This document shows positions 9,557 through 20,510 of a stretch of DNA of 34,765 nt, one piece after another; the stretch's first letter is position 1; each line of letters begins with the position of its first letter. The notes under the pieces were generated by a model, which saw nothing but the letters and a program-made list of their open reading frames with translations, was not told the DNA's origin and ran no database searches. The stretch lies in assembly GCA_001828595.1 (NCBI GenBank), contig MHZA01000030.1, forward strand, positions 1 to 34,765, written 5' to 3'. This DNA comes from Planctomycetes bacterium RIFCSPLOWO2_12_FULL_40_19 (lineage in GTDB: Bacteria; Planctomycetota; Brocadiia; Brocadiales; Scalinduaceae). A program made the position numbers and the translations under genes.

Positions 9557-11446
9557 CTAGAGTCTACGACTCAGAGAGGTTGTTACTGGTTTAAAACTCA
9601 AAGAATTATTTATAACTGCCGATTGAGTATTTCCCTTGCTTTTACTCATCAAATATACCATCAGTATAGAAATGTCTGCAGGAGACACTCCGGAAATACG
9701 CGAAGCCTGCCCCAGTGAAACAGGGCGAAATCTGGCTAGCTTCTGCTGAGCTTCTTTCCTTAATCCCTGTATACTGTCATAGTGGAAATGTGAAGGAAGT
9801 GAAAGTTTTTCCATCTTTTTAAACTTTTCGATTTGCTGTTTTTGTCTATTAATGTAGCCTTCGTATTTCGCCTCTATTTCCACCTGTTCCTGCACAAGAA
9901 CCGAAATACTTCTTGCCCTTAGGTCACTATCGACCTCTAACAAATCATTAAAGCTTATATTGGGACGCCTCAAAAGCTTTAATAATGAATCTTCCCCGTT
10001 CTTTTTGCGCTCAAGATATTCTCTTGTCTCTGAAATGTTTTTCTCTTTCTCCAATAACCCACCCCATTGATCACTACTAATCAAACCATACTGATAGCCG
10101 TATCTCATGAGTCTTCTATCGGCATTATCATGTCGAAGAACAAGTCTATACTCGGCTCTGGAAGTAAACATTCTATACGGCTCTTGCGTACCTTTTGTAA
10201 CTAAATCATCAATCAGAACACCAATATAAGCTTCGGAACGATCAAGGATAAAAGGTTCGCATCCCCGGATTTTCAACACAGCATTTATTCCAGCCATAAT
10301 TCCCTGCGCAGCCGCCTCCTCATAACCTGAAGTACCGTTTATCTGCCCTGCCAGGAAAATATTTTCAACATCCTTTGCCTCCAGTGAAGGCTTAATCTGA
10401 GTGGGCGGCACATAATCGTATTCTATCGCATATCCGTAACGTGTAATATCTGCATTTTCTAATCCCCTTATTGAATGAATCATTGCTTCCTGAACATCAA
10501 ACGGAATACTGGTAGATATGCCATTACAATACACCTCTGTGGTGTCATGCCCTTCTGGTTCAAGAAATATTTGATGATGATCTTTATCTGGAAATCTGGT
10601 TATTTTGTCTTCGATGGAAGGACAATATCTCGGTCCTACAGCCTTGATCTGTCCCGTAAAGATTGGAGAACGATCAAGGTTTGATTTTATGATCTCGTGT
10701 GTTATGTTGTTCGTGTGAGTTATATAGCATTTGATCTGAGGTCTTAGAATCTTCTTAGTTGAAAAAGAAAATACTGTAGGATTCTCATCACCATCTTGTG
10801 CCTGCAATATATCATAATTTATCCTGCTGCCGTTAAGACGTGGTGGTGTCCCTGTTTTAAGCCTATCAATCTTGAAACCTAAATTCTGCAAACTGCCCGA
10901 TAATTTTTCGGCAGACGGTTCGCTGGATCTTCCTCCTTTCGACTGGGAGTTGCCAATGTGAATTAATCCATTAAGAAACGTACCGGTTGTAATAATTACG
11001 GCCTTAGACCTGTACCTTGTCCCGCTTTTACCGATTAAACCCAGGATTCCATTATCATGAATTATAATTTCTTCAACGCAATCCTGGCGTAATGAGATAT
11101 TGGCCTGCTCTTCCAGTCTCCTTTTCATCGTCAACTGATACAGTCTTTTGTCCGCCTGTGCGCGAGGCGACCGTACTGCGTGTCCTTTACTTGCATTAAG
11201 AAGTCTGAACTGTATGCCGGTCGCATCAATTACCTTCCCCATTTCACCGCCAAGGGCATCCACTTCACGCACTAATTGACCTTTTGCAAGCCCGCCAATT
11301 GCAGGGTTGCACGACATTTGAGCTATAGTATCAAGATTCATGGTCAACATGGCTGTCTGCATACCCATTCTTGCAGATGCCAATGCCGCCTCACATCCGG
11401 CATGACCACCGCCAACAACAATAACATCATAATTAATATACATCAT
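9557..11446 (-). CDS. mnmG: tRNA uridine 5-carboxymethylaminomethyl synthesis enzyme MnmG
   Basis: A 629-residue FAD enzyme that works with MnmE to modify the wobble uridine (U34) of certain tRNAs. Visible signatures are the N-terminal dinucleotide-binding motif VVGGGHAGCEAA (10-21), CNPAIGGLAKGQLVREVDAL, VRSPRAQADK, GTFLNGLIHIGN, LKTGTPPRLNG, GTSGYEEAAAQGI and the C-terminal MnmE/tRNA-binding region (SGVSPADISILM). Length is normal. Two adjacent ATG codons (11446 and 11443) could serve as start, and the first overlaps the rny stop by 4 nt, so it is translated after rny. It converges on rho with a 4-nt gap and no room for a terminator. Confidence 0.97.
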   Translation of the reverse strand: MMYINYDVIVVGGGHAGCEAALASARMGMQTAMLTMNLDTIAQMSCNPAIGGLAKGQLVREVDALGGEMGKVIDATGIQFRLLNASKGHAVRSPRAQADKRLYQLTMKRRLEEQANISLRQDCVEEIIIHDNGILGLIGKSGTRYRSKAVIITTGTFLNGLIHIGNSQSKGGRSSEPSAEKLSGSLQNLGFKIDRLKTGTPPRLNGSRINYDILQAQDGDENPTVFSFSTKKILRPQIKCYITHTNNITHEIIKSNLDRSPIFTGQIKAVGPRYCPSIEDKITRFPDKDHHQIFLEPEGHDTTEVYCNGISTSIPFDVQEAMIHSIRGLENADITRYGYAIEYDYVPPTQIKPSLEAKDVENIFLAGQINGTSGYEEAAAQGIMAGINAVLKIRGCEPFILDRSEAYIGVLIDDLVTKGTQEPYRMFTSRAEYRLVLRHDNADRRLMRYGYQYGLISSDQWGGLLEKEKNISETREYLERKKNGEDSLLKLLRRPNISFNDLLEVDSDLRARSISVLVQEQVEIEAKYEGYINRQKQQIEKFKKMEKLSLPSHFHYDSIQGLRKEAQQKLARFRPVSLGQASRISGVSPADISILMVYLMSKSKGNTQSAVINNSLSFKPVTTSLSRRL

Positions 11447-12966
11447 TTTGCCTTCTGTACCACCCGTTTCTCTCTAATCACAGTAACCGTAACTTCTCCA
11501 GGATATTCAAGTTCTTCTTCTATTTCTTTTGCTATATCATGGCAAATTTTTGAGGCCGATTTATCACTAACCTTGTCTGGATGAACGATCACCCTTACTT
11601 CTCTGCCAGCCTGTATTGCATAGGCGCTTTCAACTCCACCAAAAGACATTGCCACACTTTCCAACTTCTCCAGCCGTTTAACATACTTCTCAAGAGTTTC
11701 CCGCCTTGCCCCCGGCCTGCTGGCCGAAATTGCATCTGCCGCATTTATCAATACAGAATAAACCGTTTCGGAAGGCACTTCTTCATGATGCGAAGCAATC
11801 GCATTTACAACCTCAGGTTTTTCATCATATCTTTTAGCAATATCCGCCCCTACAAGAGCGTGAGTACCTTCAACATCTGAACTAACGGCCTTACCAATGT
11901 CATGCAGAAGACCGCATCTTCTTGCAATCTGTGCATCCAGTTTTAATTCACCTGCCATGATACCCGCTAAATTAGATACCTCTATAGAATGCTGAAGCTG
12001 ATTCTGCCCGTAGCTGGTACGATATCTTAGCCGGCCTATTAAATTGATGATTTCTGAATGCAAATCATGTATTCCCAACTCGAAGCTCGTCTGTTTCCCG
12101 GTTTCCTGAATAATCTGTTCAATATCTTTTTCTGTCTCCTGTACTACTTCTTCTATCCGTGCAGGATGAATTCTACCATCCAGGATTAATTTCTTCATCG
12201 CCAGCCTGGCAACCTCCCTGCGAACACCGTCAAATCCTGAAAGAACTATGATTCCAGGGGTATCATCAACGATTACGTCAATTCCTGTTGCTTTTTCAAA
12301 GGCACGAATATTTCTACCTTCACGGCCAATAATCCTCCCTTTCATTTCGTCACCGGGTAATTCAATCGTACTTACAACATTATCGACCGCGTTATTTGCC
12401 GCACATCGCTGTATGGCAGTACACAATATTGAAACTGCATTCTTTTCGGATTCCTCTTTGGCTTTTTTTGTGTACTTTTCTATTAAGTGGACACATTCCT
12501 TTTCAAGTTCTTTTTCCAGGCGGCTCAACAATAGTTTTTCAGCTTCTTCTCCGGTCAACCCTGAAACTCTAAAAAGTGTATTTTTCCCTTCCTGAATAAG
12601 GTCTTCAAGCTGTAATTCTTTTTTTCCAAGTTCTATTTCTTTGTTTGATAAATTAGAAGCCATACTTTCAATGTATTTCTCCTTTTTTGTAAGTATATCT
12701 ATCTTTCTCTCCAAATTGTCTTCTCTTTTACTCAAACGCTTTTCCAGGTGACGTAATTCTTGTCTTGATTCCTGCGTCTCTTTCTCAAAAATCTCTTTCC
12801 TTTTGTACAAATCTTCTCTGGCTGTAATGTTGGCGTTTTTTAATATCCTCTCCGCCTCTAATTTTGCTTCTTTAATCACGTTCCTGGAGGTTCTCTCCCT
12901 GCTAACTTGACGTAACTTGAAAAACAGATAACATATTAAAAAACCAAATGTTATGCAAACAGGCAA
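11443..12966 (-). CDS. rny: ribonuclease Y
   Basis: A membrane-anchored endoribonuclease initiating mRNA decay. Domains in order: a hydrophobic N-terminal anchor (VCITFGFLICYLFF), a long coiled coil (about 25-175), a KH RNA-binding domain (GRIIGREGRNIRAFEKATG, 210-228) and an HD phosphohydrolase domain with HSIEV (H326) and the catalytic pair H355-D356 in CGLLHDIGKA. The start given is a TTG. The frame remains open upstream to a stop at 13015-13017, adding FTEIPKLFYVFVL, which would lengthen the anchor to a normal helix. No ATG, GTG or TTG exists there. A good AAGGCGG sequence lies just beyond (about 13022-13028), so a non-standard ATT/ATA start or a sequence error is possible. mnmG overlaps the 3' end by 4 nt. 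Confidence 0.95.
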   Translation of the reverse strand: MPVCITFGFLICYLFFKLRQVSRERTSRNVIKEAKLEAERILKNANITAREDLYKRKEIFEKETQESRQELRHLEKRLSKREDNLERKIDILTKKEKYIESMASNLSNKEIELGKKELQLEDLIQEGKNTLFRVSGLTGEEAEKLLLSRLEKELEKECVHLIEKYTKKAKEESEKNAVSILCTAIQRCAANNAVDNVVSTIELPGDEMKGRIIGREGRNIRAFEKATGIDVIVDDTPGIIVLSGFDGVRREVARLAMKKLILDGRIHPARIEEVVQETEKDIEQIIQETGKQTSFELGIHDLHSEIINLIGRLRYRTSYGQNQLQHSIEVSNLAGIMAGELKLDAQIARRCGLLHDIGKAVSSDVEGTHALVGADIAKRYDEKPEVVNAIASHHEEVPSETVYSVLINAADAISASRPGARRETLEKYVKRLEKLESVAMSFGGVESAYAIQAGREVRVIVHPDKVSDKSASKICHDIAKEIEEELEYPGEVTVTVIREKRVVQKAK

Positions 12967-13717
12967 TACAAATACATAAAATAATTTTGGTATTTCAGTG
13001 AAAATATGGATAGGTCATCACCGCCTTTTTTAAAAATAGACAATTAAAAAGATTTCTGGAGATTCAATTGAAGATTCTATAGATTCTCAGAATAAAAGAA
13101 TTGAGGTATGGAAGAATACTAACGGCAAGATTTATAGTCGTCCCTTGTGCTCTAACGAAACGATTTTAACTTGGAATAGTCTTAAGATTTCCTGGAAATG
13201 ATTCTAGCTATAAAAAATAAACTATATCTACCTGAATACACGGATAAGCTATACAAAATAAGTTATCAACACACTCAGGATATTACATAAAGTTCCTTTT
13301 TTTATAAAAAAATTCAAGATAAAAATTTAATCCAAAGGCTAATGCAATGATATAAGTAATTTTCATCTTAATGGAATTCATTTTAAGACCAATAAATATA
13401 TCCAAAACTCATTCCTCGTTAAAACAAAAAAAGCTTTCTTTCCTCAATTCTTCTTTCGTATAAGACAAATCTATATATACACTTTAACTAACACCAATAT
13501 TTTATGCTATATAAACAAGAATAGAAATTTTTGCATTAAATACTCAAAAACTATCGCATAACTCTGGTGCCAGATATTTCATAAAAATGTATTGTGAATA
13601 TATATTACAAACAAACGGAAGTCAAGTAATTTAAAACAGATAAATTAGTTTTATACGAATAGAGCAATCTTTTAATAGCCACATGACATCCAAAAGTCAG
13701 ATTATTTTAGTTCTTAT
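12967..13717. other. 750-nt AT-rich gene-free spacer
   Basis: No coding frame, RNA gene or repeat recognised. Only the first 50 nt can be tied to a gene, as the possible true N-terminus and ribosome binding site of rny. A single DnaA-box-like word (TTATCAACA, about 13262) occurs without companions. The right edge leads into the 3' end of a small membrane protein gene. Confidence 0.4.
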
Positions 13718-13975
13718 CTAGCGACGTCCTCTGGTAGTCATCTGGTACATAAACAAGAAAACAACAAAAGCTAAGATACCACCAACAAATATGTAAACCG
13801 TAATTTTACCGGTAACGGCATAAACATTGGATGTCCCTATACTGATTAGGGCAGCAATACCTATACAAAAAAAAGTTGTCAGGAGTGTATAAAACACTCT
13901 TTTTTTCATTCTTTTTCTCTTATGGATATGATGGTAATATTTTGGTCTTCTATGCTTTTCTGACATTTTTACCAT
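13718..13975 (-). CDS. small two-helix membrane protein, unknown
   Basis: An 85-residue protein not assigned to a family. A basic, His-rich cytoplasmic N-terminus (HRRPKYYHHIHKRKRMKKR) is followed by two hydrophobic segments (YTLLTTFFCIGIAALISIG and VYIFVGGILAFVVFLFMY) and a short basic tail (TTRGRR), giving a hairpin topology with both ends inside. I chose the ATG at 13975 because GGAG lies 8 nt upstream; the longer GTG/TTG-type extension lacks such a site. It is divergent from the Amt-HK relic. The His/Lys-rich head could bind nucleic acid, lipid or metal, which is speculation. Confidence 0.6.
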   Translation of the reverse strand: MVKMSEKHRRPKYYHHIHKRKRMKKRVFYTLLTTFFCIGIAALISIGTSNVYAVTGKITVYIFVGGILAFVVFLFMYQMTTRGRR

Positions 13976-14214
13976 ATTGAATACTCCACTTTGGGGAACA
14001 TTGACTAACAATAGAAGCTATAACTTTTACTCCCGATTTGGAAAAAGCGCTTTTGTGTTTAATCCAGAAAATATACATAATAGCGCCATATGTCAATAAT
14101 AAACAGATATAAATTTTACGCTTACTTAATGTGGTGCAGTATAAAAAAGGGTTATTCAACATAAATATTTAGTCGTTTACACTATCACTATTATAATCTA
14201 CAATAATGTTAATT

Positions 14215-14292
14215 ATGGACAAATCGTTAGTAGACATATTCTGGGTCTTGATATGGTAAAATCAAACAAAATACAAAAAAAGGGCATAAGAT
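14215..14292 (+). pseudogene. relic of a second Amt-histidine kinase gene (internal deletion)
   Basis: Positions 14215-14255 match the first 41 nt of the intact Amt-HK gene (15943-15983) at 36 of 41 bases. They read MDKSLVDIFWVLIW and then stop, against MDKSSVDIFWVLIC in the intact copy. A few bases later, 14264-14292 aligns without gaps to the last 29 nt before the paralogous response regulator start (17924-17952), with 6 differences, all transitions. A response regulator paralogue follows immediately. The simplest reading is a duplicated Amt-HK/response-regulator unit that lost about 1.9 kb, nearly all of the transporter and kinase. It cannot make a functional protein. Confidence 0.85.
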
Positions 14293-14294
14293 AA

Positions 14295-14690
14295 ATGTCA
14301 AAGGCAAAGATTATGATTGTTGAAGATGAGTGGATTACTGCTGAAGATATAAAAATGAGATTACAGGCTTTGGGATATACTGTTTCCTCCCCGGCATCTA
14401 CAGGAAAGGAAGCGATTCAAAAAGCTAAGGAAGATAAGCCTGATTTAGTGCTGATGGACATTGTGTTAAAAGGTGAGATGGATGGGATTGAAGCGGCAAG
14501 TCAAATCCACACATGTTTGGATATACCCATTATCTATCTGACAGCTTATGCCGATGAAAAGATACTGGATCGGGCAAAAATAACAAAACCGTCTGGATAT
14601 ATCGTCAAGCCTTTTATAGATGAAGACTTGAAAATAGCTATTGAGATAGCTCTTTACAAACACAAGTCCGAAAAAGAAAGAAAAGACTAA
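14295..14690 (+). CDS. CheY-like response regulator, C-terminally interrupted paralogue
   Basis: A 131-residue receiver domain. The acidic pair E10-D11, phosphoacceptor D55 ([14 protein letters not shown]), the switch Thr in YLTAYADEK and the Lys in YIVKPF are all present, so phosphorylation should be possible. It is a clear paralogue of the regulator at 17953-18456, sharing long blocks such as the [10 protein letters not shown] start. The reading frame ends at KERKD where a palindromic repeat begins. Beyond the repeat (about 14716-14735), in a shifted frame, the sequence codes QELRDAI, matching ENLQDAL of the intact paralogue. So the gene was interrupted within its linker. With its kinase partner deleted, it is orphaned. 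It may survive as a receiver-only protein or be decaying. Confidence 0.85.
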
Positions 14691-14715
14691 CCCGCCTGTA
14701 CCTATTCGGGCAGGT
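14690..14715 (+). repeat. 26-bp palindromic repeat, left copy of a perfect inverted pair
   Basis: This 26-nt unit contains CCCGCCTG, ACCTATTCGGG and CAGGT. Its reverse complement is present without a mismatch at 15043-15068. The unit can fold locally (TGTACCT with AGGTACA, 8-nt loop). It overlaps the stop codon of the interrupted response regulator. Confidence 0.9.
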
Positions 14716-14768
14716 ACAAGAACTCCGTGATGCAATCTGTATAGAAGAGTTCCATTCTTGTGTATATG

Positions 14769-15023
14769 CTACCTTTCAGACTTTAAACTGGCTATCTCCT
14801 GTTGCAACTTTTTCAGCTCCATTTCCAACATACCTTTGTGAGCAAGCTCCTGATTAGCAACTTTAATGAACATCCTTCTACTACCCTCATGTTCTATGGA
14901 ATTTGCAAGTTCCAGGTAAAATTTATAACTTGACTCCTCCTTAGGAATTGCAATGATCAATACTTCTACTACTTTTTCAATCTCTTTAATTCGTTCCTGT
15001 AAACTTTTAATTTGATCCTTCAT
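14769..15023 (-). CDS. small ferritin-like/rubrerythrin-type helical protein
   Basis: An 84-residue protein of two long helices: a Lys/Glu-rich coiled-coil N-terminus (1-24), then EESSYKFYLELANSIEHEG (29-47) and FIKVANQELAHKGMLEMELKKL (52-73). The EExxxxFYLELA helix and the ExxH pair (E59, H62 in QELAHKG) resemble one half of a ferritin-like four-helix bundle of the rubrerythrin/DUF-type family. A dimer could therefore build a di-metal site. A strong AAGGAGGG sequence precedes the ATG by 6 nt. It lies on the opposite strand between two perfect 26-bp inverted repeats and beside an interrupted gene, which suggests insertion as a unit. Oxidative or iron stress protection is a family-level guess. 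Confidence 0.7.
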   Translation of the reverse strand: MKDQIKSLQERIKEIEKVVEVLIIAIPKEESSYKFYLELANSIEHEGSRRMFIKVANQELAHKGMLEMELKKLQQEIASLKSER

Positions 15024-15042: not shown

Positions 15043-15068
15043 ACCTGCCCGAATAGGTACAGGCGGGT
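15043..15068 (-). repeat. 26-bp palindromic repeat, right inverted copy
   Basis: Perfect reverse complement of 14690-14715. It lies about 7 nt upstream of the Shine-Dalgarno of the ferritin-like gene. Any hairpin formed here would sit in that gene's 5' leader, and any promoter for it must lie within or beyond the repeat. Confidence 0.9.
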
Positions 15069-15092
15069 AAGATAAGAAATCATGACAGTTTT

Positions 15093-15578
15093 TCAATGAG
15101 GCAGTCCGTAAACTAGCTTGCCACCCAAATGCCCCAGATAGCCGACAAGTGGTAAGATGGAAATGTTTAGAATAATGAATACGACATTGAGGACACCTGT
15201 ATTGTCCAGTATCCCGGGGTAAAACCAGTCCCAAGTAGTACATAGTCCCCCAACTAAAATCAATATTCGCCCGTAACGGATTTTGCTAATGAAGATATGT
15301 GTTCTTACACCCCTGTATTTCTTTTTCCACTCATGGATTCCGGTAAAATGTGAAATCGGCGTAAAAAAAGTTGCTATTATCATGAGGTAGAAATATGAAT
15401 TGTGGAATGAATCCTTATCTGAAAGCAGAGCAAGGAAAAGAAAAAAAATCGCTACAGGGTAGAGGGCGGCCGGGAAGTGAACGAACATCGCATGAAAAGG
15501 AATATTAAATAAGCCAATTTTTATTTTTGTCTTTTCTGGAAAGATTTTTTTTAGAATTTCAGCCCAATTTGTTCTCAT
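15093..15578 (-). CDS. DUF2231-type membrane protein
   Basis: A 161-residue protein with four predicted membrane helices. It shows the DUF2231 hallmarks: PFHAMFVHFPAALYP at the first helix and GYLGHLGGKLVYG at the C-terminus, with His residues near the membrane faces (FHAMFVHFP, ISHFTGIHEW). The family is uncharacterised, and its conserved His may bind heme or metal. I prefer the ATG at 15578 over the TTG 6 nt upstream. It lies between the repeat-flanked ferritin-like gene and the Amt-HK gene, on the strand opposite Amt-HK, and may share an operon with the ferritin-like gene downstream. Confidence 0.7.
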   Translation of the reverse strand: MRTNWAEILKKIFPEKTKIKIGLFNIPFHAMFVHFPAALYPVAIFFLFLALLSDKDSFHNSYFYLMIIATFFTPISHFTGIHEWKKKYRGVRTHIFISKIRYGRILILVGGLCTTWDWFYPGILDNTGVLNVVFIILNISILPLVGYLGHLGGKLVYGLPH

Positions 15579-15584
15579 GATCAA

Positions 15585-15942: not shown

Positions 15943-17949
15943 ATGGACAAATCGTCAGTCGATATCTTTTGGGTCTTGATATGTGCGGGCCTGGTGTTTT
16001 TAATGCAGTCAGGTTTTACTTGTCTGGAGTCTGGACTGACACGGTCAAAGAACAGCATAAACGTTGCCATAAAGAACATAACCGATTTTGGAATATCTAC
16101 CATCTTGTTCTGGGCGATTGGTTTCGCACTGATGTTCGGAACGTCATACAACGCATGGATAGGATCAACAGGATTTCTTTTGCCTCTTGAAGAAGGGACA
16201 TGGCCTACTACATTTTTTCTATTTGAGCTTATGTTCTGTGCCACAGCAGTGACGATTGTCTCAGGAGCCACAGCGGAGCGACTGCGGTTCAGAAGCTACA
16301 TCATCGCATCGATTATACTATCCGGCCTGATATATCCGACCTTTGGTCATTGGGCCTGGAACGGCTCCCAAAATGGTATATCCTCTGGTTGGCTTGGAAT
16401 GTTGGGATTTGTAGATTTCGCCGGTTCAACCGTGGTTCACAGTGTCGGGGGATGGGTTTCCTTAGCAACATTGCTGATTATCGGTCCCCGCGAAGGGCGT
16501 TTCCCTAAGGGTGGAGTTCACAAAAAGATTCATGGCAGCAACCTTCCCTTATCTGTACTAGGCGCATTTCTTCTGTGGAGCGGTTGGTTTGGGTTCAATG
16601 GTGGTAGCACCCTTGCCTTTAACGACAGGGTTGCAGGAATCATTATAAACACATTTTTGGCTGGCTCTACAGGTTCTATGGTTACGCTTGCTATTGGATG
16701 GTTGCTTCGGCGGCGCCCTGATCCAGAACTACTGATCTTCGGTTCTATAGCAGGTCTTGTGGCCATCACTGCCCCGGCACATGCTGTAAATGCAATATCG
16801 GCCATAGCCATCGGAGGAATCGGTGGAATTGTGATGCTAGGTGTGGAATATCTTTTGGAATATCTGCACATCGATGATGCTGTGGGAGCCATTCCCGTGC
16901 ACCTGGGCGCTGGGATCTGGGGCACACTTGCTGTTGCTATCTTTGGCGAAACAGAACTCCTGAACACAGGACTCAATCGTTGGGATCAACTTCTGACACA
17001 GGTTATAGGTATAGGTGTATGCTTCTTATGGACATTCGGCACGTCTTTTTCGTTATTTCTATTAATAAACCGCTTTCTCCCATTTCGAGTTACGCCTGAG
17101 AACGAATATATCGGCCTTAATGTCTCTGAACATGGGGCTACCACAGAACTCCTGGATATGTTCAGGACTATGGATGCACAGGCTAAGACGGGAGACATGA
17201 GTCTCCGTGTACCGGTGGAACCTTTCACGGAGGTTGGCCAGATTGCTGAGCGTTACAACATTGTCATGGATGCCCTTCAGAAAGCTACTGCCAGGACCGA
17301 AGCCTCTCTTGAAGAAAAAGAAGTGCTTCTGCGAGAGATACATCATCGGGTCAAGAACAATATGCAGGTTATTTCCAGCTTGCTTCGGCTTCAGTCCAGA
17401 AATGTCAGGGATGAACAACAGATAGAAATGCTCAAGGAAAGCCAGAACCGAATAAAAGCGATGGCTCTGATTCACGAGAAACTTTACGGGTCAAAAGACC
17501 TGGCAAACATTAATTTCAACGATTACATTAAGAATCTTGTTAATGACTTGTTTTTATCTTATAAGGTGAGTGCTGGCAAAGTCTCACTGAAGATGAATAT
17601 TGAAGCTGTTTCCTTTGGAATTGATACTGCTATACCCTGTGGATTAATAGTCAATGAACTGGTATCCAATTCACTGAAATACGCATTTCCAAAGGGGAAA
17701 GACGGTGAGATTAAAATATCCCTGCATAAAATTGCAGATTTGAAGTCCGACATGTATGAGTTAACAGTCAGCGACAACGGTACCGGTATACCTGGAGATT
17801 TGGATATCAGAAAGACCGAATCTCTAGGGTTACGGCTGATTACAAATTTAGCTGAAAATCAACTTCAGGGCAAAGTTGAACTAAACAGAAACGAAGGAAC
17901 AGAATTTCAAATTAAATTCAAGGAAGCAAAATATAAAGAAAGGATATAA
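15943..17949 (+). CDS. ammonium transporter-histidine kinase fusion (ammonium sensor kinase)
   Basis: A 668-residue fusion. Residues 1-385 are an Amt/AmtB domain: FGHWAWNG (134-141), D158 and H166 in VDFAGSTVVHSVGG, WSGWFGFNGGS (212-222), and the second pore histidine H320 in IPVHLGAGIWG, so the twin-His pair is retained. Residues about 400-460 form a linker helix with HAMP-like character (MSLRVPVEPFTEVGQIAERYN). A HisKA_2-type kinase follows: EIHHRVKNNMQ with phospho-His at H467/H468, N-box NELVSNSLKYAF (571-582) and G-box DNGTGIP (611-617). Amt-fused kinases of this kind are known from anammox bacteria (Kuenenia Amt5). The response regulator begins 3 nt downstream, so the pair is a two-component system responding to external ammonium. 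Confidence 0.96.
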   Translation: MDKSSVDIFWVLICAGLVFLMQSGFTCLESGLTRSKNSINVAIKNITDFGISTILFWAIGFALMFGTSYNAWIGSTGFLLPLEEGTWPTTFFLFELMFCATAVTIVSGATAERLRFRSYIIASIILSGLIYPTFGHWAWNGSQNGISSGWLGMLGFVDFAGSTVVHSVGGWVSLATLLIIGPREGRFPKGGVHKKIHGSNLPLSVLGAFLLWSGWFGFNGGSTLAFNDRVAGIIINTFLAGSTGSMVTLAIGWLLRRRPDPELLIFGSIAGLVAITAPAHAVNAISAIAIGGIGGIVMLGVEYLLEYLHIDDAVGAIPVHLGAGIWGTLAVAIFGETELLNTGLNRWDQLLTQVIGIGVCFLWTFGTSFSLFLLINRFLPFRVTPENEYIGLNVSEHGATTELLDMFRTMDAQAKTGDMSLRVPVEPFTEVGQIAERYNIVMDALQKATARTEASLEEKEVLLREIHHRVKNNMQVISSLLRLQSRNVRDEQQIEMLKESQNRIKAMALIHEKLYGSKDLANINFNDYIKNLVNDLFLSYKVSAGKVSLKMNIEAVSFGIDTAIPCGLIVNELVSNSLKYAFPKGKDGEIKISLHKIADLKSDMYELTVSDNGTGIPGDLDIRKTESLGLRLITNLAENQLQGKVELNRNEGTEFQIKFKEAKYKERI

Positions 17950-17952
17950 GAC

Positions 17953-18456
17953 ATGACAAAGGCAAAAATTATGATTGTAGAAGATGAATGGGTTACTGCT
18001 GACGATATTAGGATGTGCTTGCAGAGTTTGGGATATACAGTTACCTCTGTAACGTCTTCGGGAGAAGAAGCTATTCAAAAGGCAGAGAATGATAGGCCGG
18101 ATTTAGTGCTAATGGACATTATGTTAAAGGGTGAGATGGATGGGATTGAAGCAGCCAGACAAATCCGTTCTTGCTATGGCATACCTATTGTCTATCTCAC
18201 CGCTTATGCCGATGAAAAGATACTGGAGCGGGCCAGTATAACAGAACCATTTGGATATATTGTTAAGCCTTTTGTAAACGAAGACTTAAAGATAGCAATC
18301 GAAATAGCCCTTTACAAGCATAGAGTAGAAAAAGAAAGAAAGAGGCTCATTGAAAACCTCCAGGATGCACTCCCCAGGATCACGACATTATCAGGCTTAC
18401 TCCCCATCTGCCCTTCCTGCAAAAAGATACGAGATGCCGAAGGTAATTGGAAATAA
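17953..18456 (+). CDS. response regulator partner of Amt-HK, truncated Cys-motif tail
   Basis: A 167-residue protein. Residues 1-125 are a receiver domain with E10-D11, phosphoacceptor D55 ([14 protein letters not shown]), YLTAYADEK and the Lys of YIVKPF. A helical linker ([16 protein letters not shown]) leads to [22 protein letters not shown] and stop. That tail is the beginning of a motif I know from many bacterial regulators and PAS-GGDEF proteins, where CxxCKKIRD is followed by a W and some 20 more residues with further His/Cys. Here it ends just after the Trp, so a metal or redox site would be incomplete. The start lies 3 nt after the Amt-HK stop, with AAAGGA as ribosome binding site inside the kinase gene. 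It has no DNA-binding domain, so output is probably by protein or RNA interaction. Confidence 0.9.
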
Positions 18457-18507: not shown

Positions 18508-19872
18508 TTAACTCTTAACTGTTGCTGCCAAATCTACTGTATCTTGCTCATTAGTTGATTGATATTCATATCTGGCAATGAGAGCATTTGCATATTCTAC
18601 ATGTGACCACATAAGCGGTATGGCAAATTGGATAACGGTTTTCTTCTCCTCGTAAATATCCCTTCTAATCTTATCGTAGCTTTTTTTCATGAAGAAAAGC
18701 TCCTCTACAATAATGTCATATGAGAGATTAGGAATCAGGATTTCAGGGTGGAATTCTTTCTTTGCATCAAGCCCCACTTCCCATTCCAGGCGGATAAACT
18801 CTTCAAACCTTCTTTTCGTACTCAAATGTTCGGGGATAAATCCTTCTACGGTTCTATATTTGTCAATTTGATCTAAAATAGTATCCCCTCTCTCCACCGC
18901 TCCCGTTTTATAACAATACTGCGCCAGCATTGCAGTATATTGAATCCAAGGTCCGTTTCCTGCATGTATATGTGTTTCAATATCTTCTGTAAAAGGAAGA
19001 TACCTTTGCAGCATGCCAAGTTCAGAGTCCCAGAGATTCTCTACCATGAAGTTGACAGAATTAGTAATAATATCAGGATTCTCATCCAGGACACAGGAAT
19101 CACAATGCTCTTCTTTACACTGGAAATAAACCGGACTCATCAGAGTGACATCAGGCCTTAAATCAAATGTCCCCTCCTTAGTTATGCGTCTGACAAAACG
19201 GTTACTGAGCATGAAACGCCTGTGAACGGATTGGCAGAATCGGCACTTGAATGAAAGTTCTTCGTCAAAAAGCCCTTTAAGATCAAATTTCTTAGTTAAC
19301 TGCAAAATAAGGTTAAAGAAGTGTGTGTAAACGTGGTTTACCCAGATGCTGTACCCTTTCTCAATAGCGGATTCATGTATGCCCGTTGTAGAGAAAAACA
19401 GGAATATCTCCTCCCTGTAAAAATGCTGAAGAGCGTATTGAATCGCCTTTTTTATCTTTTTAAGATAGTCCTCCAGTTCTTCAGGTTTCTCACGTCGGAA
19501 GCAGCAAGCCAATAAATAGTTGGCAAGAATGATAGCGCCATAAGCAGTATTATCCTCCTGGATGTAGATGGCTTTGTCTTGTCCGTTCAATCCGTAACGC
19601 TGTCCCCACTTCCCACTCTCATCCTGAACATAAGCGATGAATTTGGCCATCCCTTTCAACATGCTGAAAGCGTCCCCATTTGAGTCCAGATCCTTCTCTG
19701 CCATTTGCCTGAACATCATGGAAGCACACGCAGAATCTCTTGGATATACGTATGGATAGCGTGATTCCAAAATAGTAGCCAATAAAACTGTTCCATGCTC
19801 AGATGTAATCGAACATTTCTTAATTATTTCTAAATGTTCGGATAGTTTTTCACAAAGTTTATCCTTGTCCAT
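18508..19872 (-). CDS. GH15-like (glucoamylase-related) protein with Cys-rich insert
   Basis: A 454-residue cytosolic protein with the (alpha/alpha)6 motifs of glycoside hydrolase family 15: YPYVYPRDSACAS (39-51), DESGKWGQRYGLNGQ, IQEDNTAYGAIILANY (104-119), GNGPWIQYTAML (306-317), GFIPEHLS (344-351, E348 in the position of the catalytic base) and PLMWSHVEYANAL (419-431). GH15 enzymes release glucose from alpha-glucans or trehalose. A segment absent from typical members carries C210, C213, C252, C257 and C260 (CRFC, CKEEHCDSC), a likely metal-binding insert. The general acid is less certain; E167 or E171 are candidates. It stands alone, convergent to the Amt-HK regulator. Storage-glucan breakdown is plausible, but substrate is unknown. 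Confidence 0.75.
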   Translation of the reverse strand: MDKDKLCEKLSEHLEIIKKCSITSEHGTVLLATILESRYPYVYPRDSACASMMFRQMAEKDLDSNGDAFSMLKGMAKFIAYVQDESGKWGQRYGLNGQDKAIYIQEDNTAYGAIILANYLLACCFRREKPEELEDYLKKIKKAIQYALQHFYREEIFLFFSTTGIHESAIEKGYSIWVNHVYTHFFNLILQLTKKFDLKGLFDEELSFKCRFCQSVHRRFMLSNRFVRRITKEGTFDLRPDVTLMSPVYFQCKEEHCDSCVLDENPDIITNSVNFMVENLWDSELGMLQRYLPFTEDIETHIHAGNGPWIQYTAMLAQYCYKTGAVERGDTILDQIDKYRTVEGFIPEHLSTKRRFEEFIRLEWEVGLDAKKEFHPEILIPNLSYDIIVEELFFMKKSYDKIRRDIYEEKKTVIQFAIPLMWSHVEYANALIARYEYQSTNEQDTVDLAATVKS

Positions 19873-19911
19873 AATATAAATAGCTTCAAAATCAGGGAAA
19901 AGTATATACTA

Positions 19912-20139
19912 TCACTTATTCTTCTGAGCTACAAGGGCCTGATAACACCAGGTACATAGAATACGGGGAAGCGGCAATGGCAAAGTAACTTTTTCTTCCC
20001 CCAACCCCCATTTGTACGTTTCAGTAACAGGGATCTGCTCACGAATCTGATGATCCCTACAAACGGCAATTCCGCAAACGATACATATTGCTATTGTTTC
20101 GCTCTCTTTCCCTTCCTTGTCACAAATATAACACTTCAA
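19912..20139 (-). CDS. DUF2180 zinc-ribbon-like protein
   Basis: A 75-residue protein with paired cysteines: C3-C6, C19-C22, C27 with H30, and C62-C65. The pattern (MKCYIC...ICIVCGIAVCRDH...RILCTWC) matches the DUF2180 family of small zinc proteins, whose function is unknown. The start is TTG behind a GGGGG-containing ribosome binding site. It lies 39 nt upstream of the GH15-like gene on the same strand, so the two may be co-transcribed. The shared Cys-rich character of the two products is notable. Confidence 0.75.
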   Translation of the reverse strand: MKCYICDKEGKESETIAICIVCGIAVCRDHQIREQIPVTETYKWGLGEEKVTLPLPLPRILCTWCYQALVAQKNK

Positions 20140-20510
20140 AGTTTTCCCCCTTTTTAAAACATTTTACGTAATTTTATAGATGGAACAGAACTTTTAAATT
20201 ATGTCAAATTAATCCGGGAAAATCAAGTTTGGTATTACGTATACTTTCAATGTCAAAAAATGAAAATGACTCATCATAAGCATTGCTTTTTAATGAATTA
20301 TTGGTGAGTTATGAATGTAAGAATCAAATTATGGGGATAAGGGACTTGGTTTACAGACAATTATTAACATTGCGCTGCTTAAGATTCTTAGATTATGCTA
20401 TACCAACAATCTCAGAAAAAAATTCAAGCTAAAACTCCGGCAGGTTGTGTGGTGGCGTGCTAGATTAACAACACAAAGCATGACAGGCCACTAAAAGAGA
20501 GACGAGCAAG
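20140..20510. other. gene-free spacer with one hairpin
   Basis: No gene recognised. Near the right end, GTGGC-GTGCT (20452-20461) can pair with AGCAT and GCCAC (20477-20491) with a 5-nt bulge. This lies just downstream of the end of the minus-strand membrane protein gene and may mark its transcript end. Confidence 0.35.

Follow-up and report, generated by a model that had tools for sequence, protein, structure and literature searches.

Remnant of a second Amt-histidine kinase gene upstream of a retained response regulator in an anammox-type planctomycete

The window analyzed here is a 34,765-nucleotide stretch, contig C30 of the draft genome of Planctomycetes bacterium RIFCSPLOWO2_12_FULL_40_19 (G000; 2.12 Mb in 174 contigs, 88% complete), and its closest matches are Brocadiaceae-type and Scalindua genomes, i.e., anammox-type bacteria. 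It was examined against a family comparison set of 17 genomes, including G014, G010 and G003, whose identities were inferred to be Hainich-H41-bin245-1, isolate B27T3L11 and Ca. Scalindua arabica, respectively. The genes for MnmG and RNase Y on the reverse strand are followed by a 78-base remnant and a response regulator gene (RR-A), then by reverse-strand genes for a rubrerythrin-like protein and a DUF2231 protein, and finally, on the forward strand, by an intact Amt-histidine kinase gene (Amt-HK copy B), in which an Amt domain and a histidine kinase are fused in a single open reading frame, and its response regulator gene (RR-B); Table 1 lists the features from the promoter of copy A to RR-B. 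A species tree built from MnmG and RNase Y placed the window together with G014 as sister to a group of G010, G003, G013 and G008 (support 100%). The window and G014 are young sister species (dS about 0.04-0.08), and upstream of the remnant they share 97% identity over positions 9558-14253.

Dispersed repeats were also observed near the locus. One of them, TACCTGCCCGAATAGGTWCAGGCGGG, is a palindrome some 26 nt long that lies behind RR-A and again at 15043-15069 on the forward strand; 40 or more matches to it were counted in this genome and in G014, and 15 of the 17 family genomes have it. Since the copy behind RR-A is placed differently in the window and in G014, it moved or was inserted separately. 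A second dispersed element, GCTTACTTAATGKGGTGCAGTATA (14120-14143), is found again on several contigs of this genome, and also in G014, G009 and G006, but is missing from the corresponding site in G014. A pattern search for AATAAACAGATATAAATTTTACGC, which neighbors this element, returned the window copy as its sole match.

Table 1. Features of the Amt-HK locus in the window.
Feature	Positions	Strand	Basis or remark
Promoter and leader block P_A	14169..14214	+	45/46 identical to the sequence preceding the intact G010 gene, and 84% (43 nt) identical to G003; the promoter of copy B is different
Decayed Amt-HK copy A, first 14 codons, now a 14-codon ORF (MDKSLVDIFWVLIW, then stop)	14215..14259	+	36/41 to 15943-15983; continues to codon 49 in G014 (end of contig C10)
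Deletion junction, TTGATATG / GTAAAATC	14255..14258	+	Microhomology of about 1 nt, from an alignment to the G014 remnant and complete copies
3' tail of copy A	14256..14294	+	37/39 to the G014 tail; 23/29 to 17924-17952
RR-A, receiver-only response regulator, 131 aa, orphaned	14295..14690	+	Pfam Response_reg 1.6e-20; 98.5% to G014
Dispersed palindromic repeat behind RR-A	14690..14717	-	Different position in G014
Rubrerythrin-like small protein	14769..15023	-	Neighbor kept with the locus
DUF2231 membrane protein	15093..15584	-	Neighbor kept with the locus
Amt-HK copy B, intact	15943..17949	+	Amt 10-400, HisKA_2 465-540, HATPase 568-661
RR-B, intact response regulator with C-terminal tail, 167 aa	17953..18456	+	Pfam

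In the first-pass annotation, the first 41 nt and the last 29 nt of the Amt-HK gene were said to survive within these 78 bases, and the alignments bore this out. The 5' piece (14215-14255) matches copy B starting exactly at codon 1, with an E value of 7.3e-7 in a BLAST search within the whole genome. The 3' piece (14264-14292) differs from copy B at six positions, all of them transitions; this match is short and A-rich, and it runs unbroken into the response regulator genes (14270-14569 against 17928-18227, 79% identity over 300 nt). None of 500 dinucleotide shuffles reached the observed match at either end, the best giving 27 for the 5' piece (observed 36/41) and 21 for the 3' piece (observed 23/29). 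Four of the five differences between copies A and B in the 5' piece are silent third-position changes, indicating that both copies were coding through most of their divergence and that the loss is comparatively recent. The window copy A thus shows a match to its homologue beyond chance and in register at both start and stop, together with disabling lesions, namely a stop after 14 codons and roughly 1.9 kb absent at the junction relative to copy B. The 78-base stretch is a pseudogene remnant of a second Amt-HK; this is an ordinary kind of object, and its value lies in an unusually readable stepwise history.

That history is visible in the sister species, since a search of the relatives revealed an intermediate deletion of the same copy A at the same locus of G014, where the 3' tail and roughly the first 75 codons are still present. 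In G014 the reading frame of copy A runs on to codon 49, where contig C10 ends. Contig C163, whose end faces that of C10, picks the gene up at codon 39 and follows it to about codon 75; from there the sequence skips to about codon 620 and proceeds through the tail into RR-A. As the overlap of the two contigs is 35 nt and only 86% identical, the exact structure of codons 39-49 is uncertain. In copy B coordinates, the G014 deletion extends from TGGATA at 16156 to TGGATA at 17801, a pair of 6-nt direct repeats, and removes about 1,645 nt, shifting the frame into a stop codon. In G014 the tail is preceded by some 100 nt of kinase 3' end that the window lacks. The tails of both genomes contain GTAAAATCAAACAAAATACAAAAAAAGG, where about 50 nt of the intact genes are absent, a common lesion that points to a copy A already broken in the shared ancestor, with further loss in the window afterwards. 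Copy A therefore died stepwise, probably before the window and G014 separated. It had been proposed that about 1.9 kb was lost while the regulator stayed; the middle of the kinase gene is indeed gone and the RR-A gene is present, but the loss was stepwise (about 1.65 kb in G014 and more in the window), and RR-A is without the CxxC tail of its paralogue.

A duplicated ammonium-sensing unit, as the annotation had also proposed, is supported by G010, in which a full Amt-HK with the same promoter stands at the corresponding locus, upstream of the block of RR-A, rubrerythrin and DUF2231 genes. A single contig of G010 contains, in order, the intact Amt-HK, a receiver-only RR-A, rubrerythrin, DUF2231, a membrane-transporter-like ORF, RR-B and a homologue of orf18508. 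The membrane-transporter-like ORF occupies the place where AmtHK-B would be, RR-B is kept, and no remnant of AmtHK-B was found between DUF2231 and RR-B. Thus, copy A is dead in the window and G014 and the copy B kinase is absent in G010, a reciprocal loss that agrees with the suggestion that sensor systems have been amplified and lost in this lineage. The kinase was lost reciprocally, and both regulators were kept in the window, G014 and G010. Across the family set of 17 genomes, 12 carry a single intact Amt-HK of this type, and no genome carries two. The general pattern is that of a pseudogenized tandem paralogue, with two ancestral copies, different ones lost in sister lineages, and intermediate deletions visible; unlike that pattern, here the kinase alone is lost each time and both regulators stay.

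Decayed kinases were also seen in other members of the family. In G013 (L075 7787-7966; L143), an Amt-HK remnant covering about codon 11 to 53 lies beside the orf18508 homologue, and the regulator is gone too; this is an independent loss in a related species. In G002 (L142 5052-5551), kinase fragments about 66% (residues 500-594) and 58% (residues 600-668) identical to Amt-HK are split across open frames, representing a decayed kinase in another genus.

The two regulators are paralogous, the receiver of RR-A being 78% identical to RR-B. The translation of RR-A (VEDEW/LVLMD/YLTAYAD/IVKPF) retains the acceptor Asp and the conserved Thr and Lys, and has no output domain. Its changes are mostly silent, with a dN/dS of 0.17 against G014 (five substitutions only) and 0.21 against G010. 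RR-B has a C-terminal tail with a CxxC motif, and this tail is absent from RR-A, in G010 as well; because of this loss, RR-A may itself be decaying. In phylogenetic analysis, the RR-A proteins of the window and of G010 fell with the Amt-HK-linked regulators, apart from the older RR1 family (100/99 branch), indicating that the duplicated unit was a kinase together with its regulator, as originally supposed. The assignment of RR-A as an RR1 regulator was considered since RR1 adjoins the rubrerythrin and DUF2231 genes in G009, G005, G004, G011 and, without Amt-HK, in G001; however, a clade of the genus RR1s with the RR-A of the window and G010 was rejected (AU p 0.011). RR-A resembles orphan single-domain (CheY-like) response regulators in having a receiver domain only and no adjacent intact kinase, but unlike those, it still shows, through the remnant upstream, that it derives from a tailed regulator linked to a kinase.

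Comparison of the coding sequences indicated that the two paralogues have not evolved separately. Over 219 comparable nt, the coding sequence of copy A resembles copy B more than G010 or G003, and a straight orthology with those two was not supported (AU p 0.022), indicating that the paralogues have recombined and that copy A is not a simple orthologue of the G010 gene over its whole length. In the tree, the copy A fragments fall apart from G010 and G003, so that the case for orthology is made by the promoter and gene order: by these, G010 carries the complete copy at the corresponding locus, and the coding tree does not place it so. In the case of copy B, the promoter matches that of G001, another genus, at 43/49 positions, and in the tree of the kinase part copy B joins G001 and not the other members of its own genus (100/99; species-tree alternative AU p 6e-6). 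Vertical orthology of copy B with G010 and G003 was accordingly rejected for the kinase part by this test, and not for the Amt part (p 0.32). Since both promoter and kinase are shared with another genus, the two units are probably old, with their sequences mixed by recombination.

Recombination also marks the two sister species. Between copy B of the window and that of G014 (L065 4795-6801), dS is 0.65 in the Amt part and 0.11 in the kinase part; the flanks, RR-B and the kinase part are 97-99% identical. The dense differences end at gene nucleotide 1199 (near position 17142), at codon 400, which is the end of the Pfam Amt domain. This pattern suggests that the sensor domain of copy B was probably swapped in one of the two species, the window or G014. 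The G014 copy A fragment is nearest, of all sequences compared, to G014 copy B (87%), an identity that allows an exchange between A and B, though it does not demonstrate one. A second recombined tract was observed in the orf18508 region (18508-20400 against L065), with a window/G014 dS of 0.45 amid surroundings that are 95-98% identical.

Overall, these results support the view, to which we assign a probability of about 0.88, that the stretch represents the remains of Amt-HK copy A from an ancestral pair, AmtHK-A/RR-A and AmtHK-B/RR-B, with RR-A left as an orphan and one kinase per genome apparently being enough. The ancestor of this anammox subclade would have carried both units with the rubrerythrin-like and DUF2231 genes between them, and the window has a larger deletion than G014, from codon 14 to the tail. 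Judging from the sequence, RR-A would now be an orphan, receiver-only regulator transcribed from the old sensor promoter; the promoter and ribosome-binding site may have been kept because RR-A is still expressed, and RR-A, if it works at all, would take phosphate from Amt-HK B, as a second target or as a phosphate sink. A single sensor kinase per genome would appear to be sufficient. Alternatively, the whole RR-A unit may be on its way out, and the data do not firmly separate decay from an orphan function. A more elaborate version seems rather unlikely to us as a full account. In it, paralogous sensors exchange their sensor domains, and the Amt part of copy B up to codon 400 was replaced by sequence from copy A, now dead, or from a close relative of it; with one of the two kinases redundant after this exchange, sister lineages would have lost different copies, and a single Amt-HK would be left in control of two receivers.

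The pieces that survive are not arbitrary, as they comprise a conserved promoter with 14 codons, and a tail holding a probable ribosome-binding site for RR-A (AAGGG, 14280-14284), both probably kept for RR-A expression. Within P_A, putative motifs were found at 14176-14204 (TTTACA-17-TACAAT) and 14192-14197 (TATAAT), although the promoter-like score alone is not above chance. It is conceivable, with odds that we place at about one in three, that the whole arrangement of promoter, 14-codon leader ORF and ribosome-binding site is a working element selected to express RR-A by itself and not debris. P_A is nearly identical to its G010 counterpart, as compared to 35/41 for the 41 coding nt of copy A; the window and G014 are identical along some 90 nt of promoter and leader; and both the low dN/dS of RR-A and the coincidence of the surviving tail with its ribosome-binding site point in the same direction. 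Against this, the sister species are so young that little decay would be expected yet, and RR-A has lost its tail.

That copy A was never complete here, partial duplication or conversion of a full gene having supplied its ends alone, would be consistent with coding fragments nearer to copy B than to G010, but it is very unlikely given the longer remnant at the same locus in G014 and the full gene with the same promoter and neighbors in G010. We consider it highly improbable that the assembler collapsed a full copy A or mis-joined it with copy B; the genome is a fragmented draft and the G014 contigs break inside copy A, suggesting a region that is hard to assemble, but the single nucleotide or so shared at the window junction would not suffice for a k-mer mis-join, the flanking sequences are unique, and in G014, an independent genome, the copy is likewise truncated and shows the same lesion in its tail. 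Finally, a chance or low-complexity similarity, which the short, A-rich 3' piece might suggest, is ruled out by the shuffles at both ends, the start and stop in register, and the G014 remnant.

The best-known relative of copy B is Ks-Amt5 of Kuenenia stuttgartiensis, an Amt fused to a histidine kinase whose regulator partner was described as 'yet to be identified' (PMC5764959); two Amt genes with histidine kinase domains have been reported in that organism (PMC7438415). Both proteins combine an Amt fold with a C-terminal histidine kinase in an anammox host and are of similar length (679 aa for Ks-Amt5 and 668 aa for copy B). They differ in that the Amt part of the window protein scores higher against a different solved Amt structure (8qj3, 428 bits) than against Ks-Amt5 (6eu6, 314 bits), and in that copy B has an adjoining response regulator. 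The copy B kinase is of the HisKA_2/HWE type, and the only Ks-Amt5 structure matched spans the Amt domain alone. The adjacent regulator is a likely partner for an Amt-HK, where none was identified for Ks-Amt5 (PMC5764959), and the orphan RR-A makes a wiring of one kinase to two receivers directly testable in vitro. The locus is therefore a readable history of a sensor-kinase pair that was duplicated, recombined and trimmed to one kinase, in anammox-type bacteria that live on ammonium.
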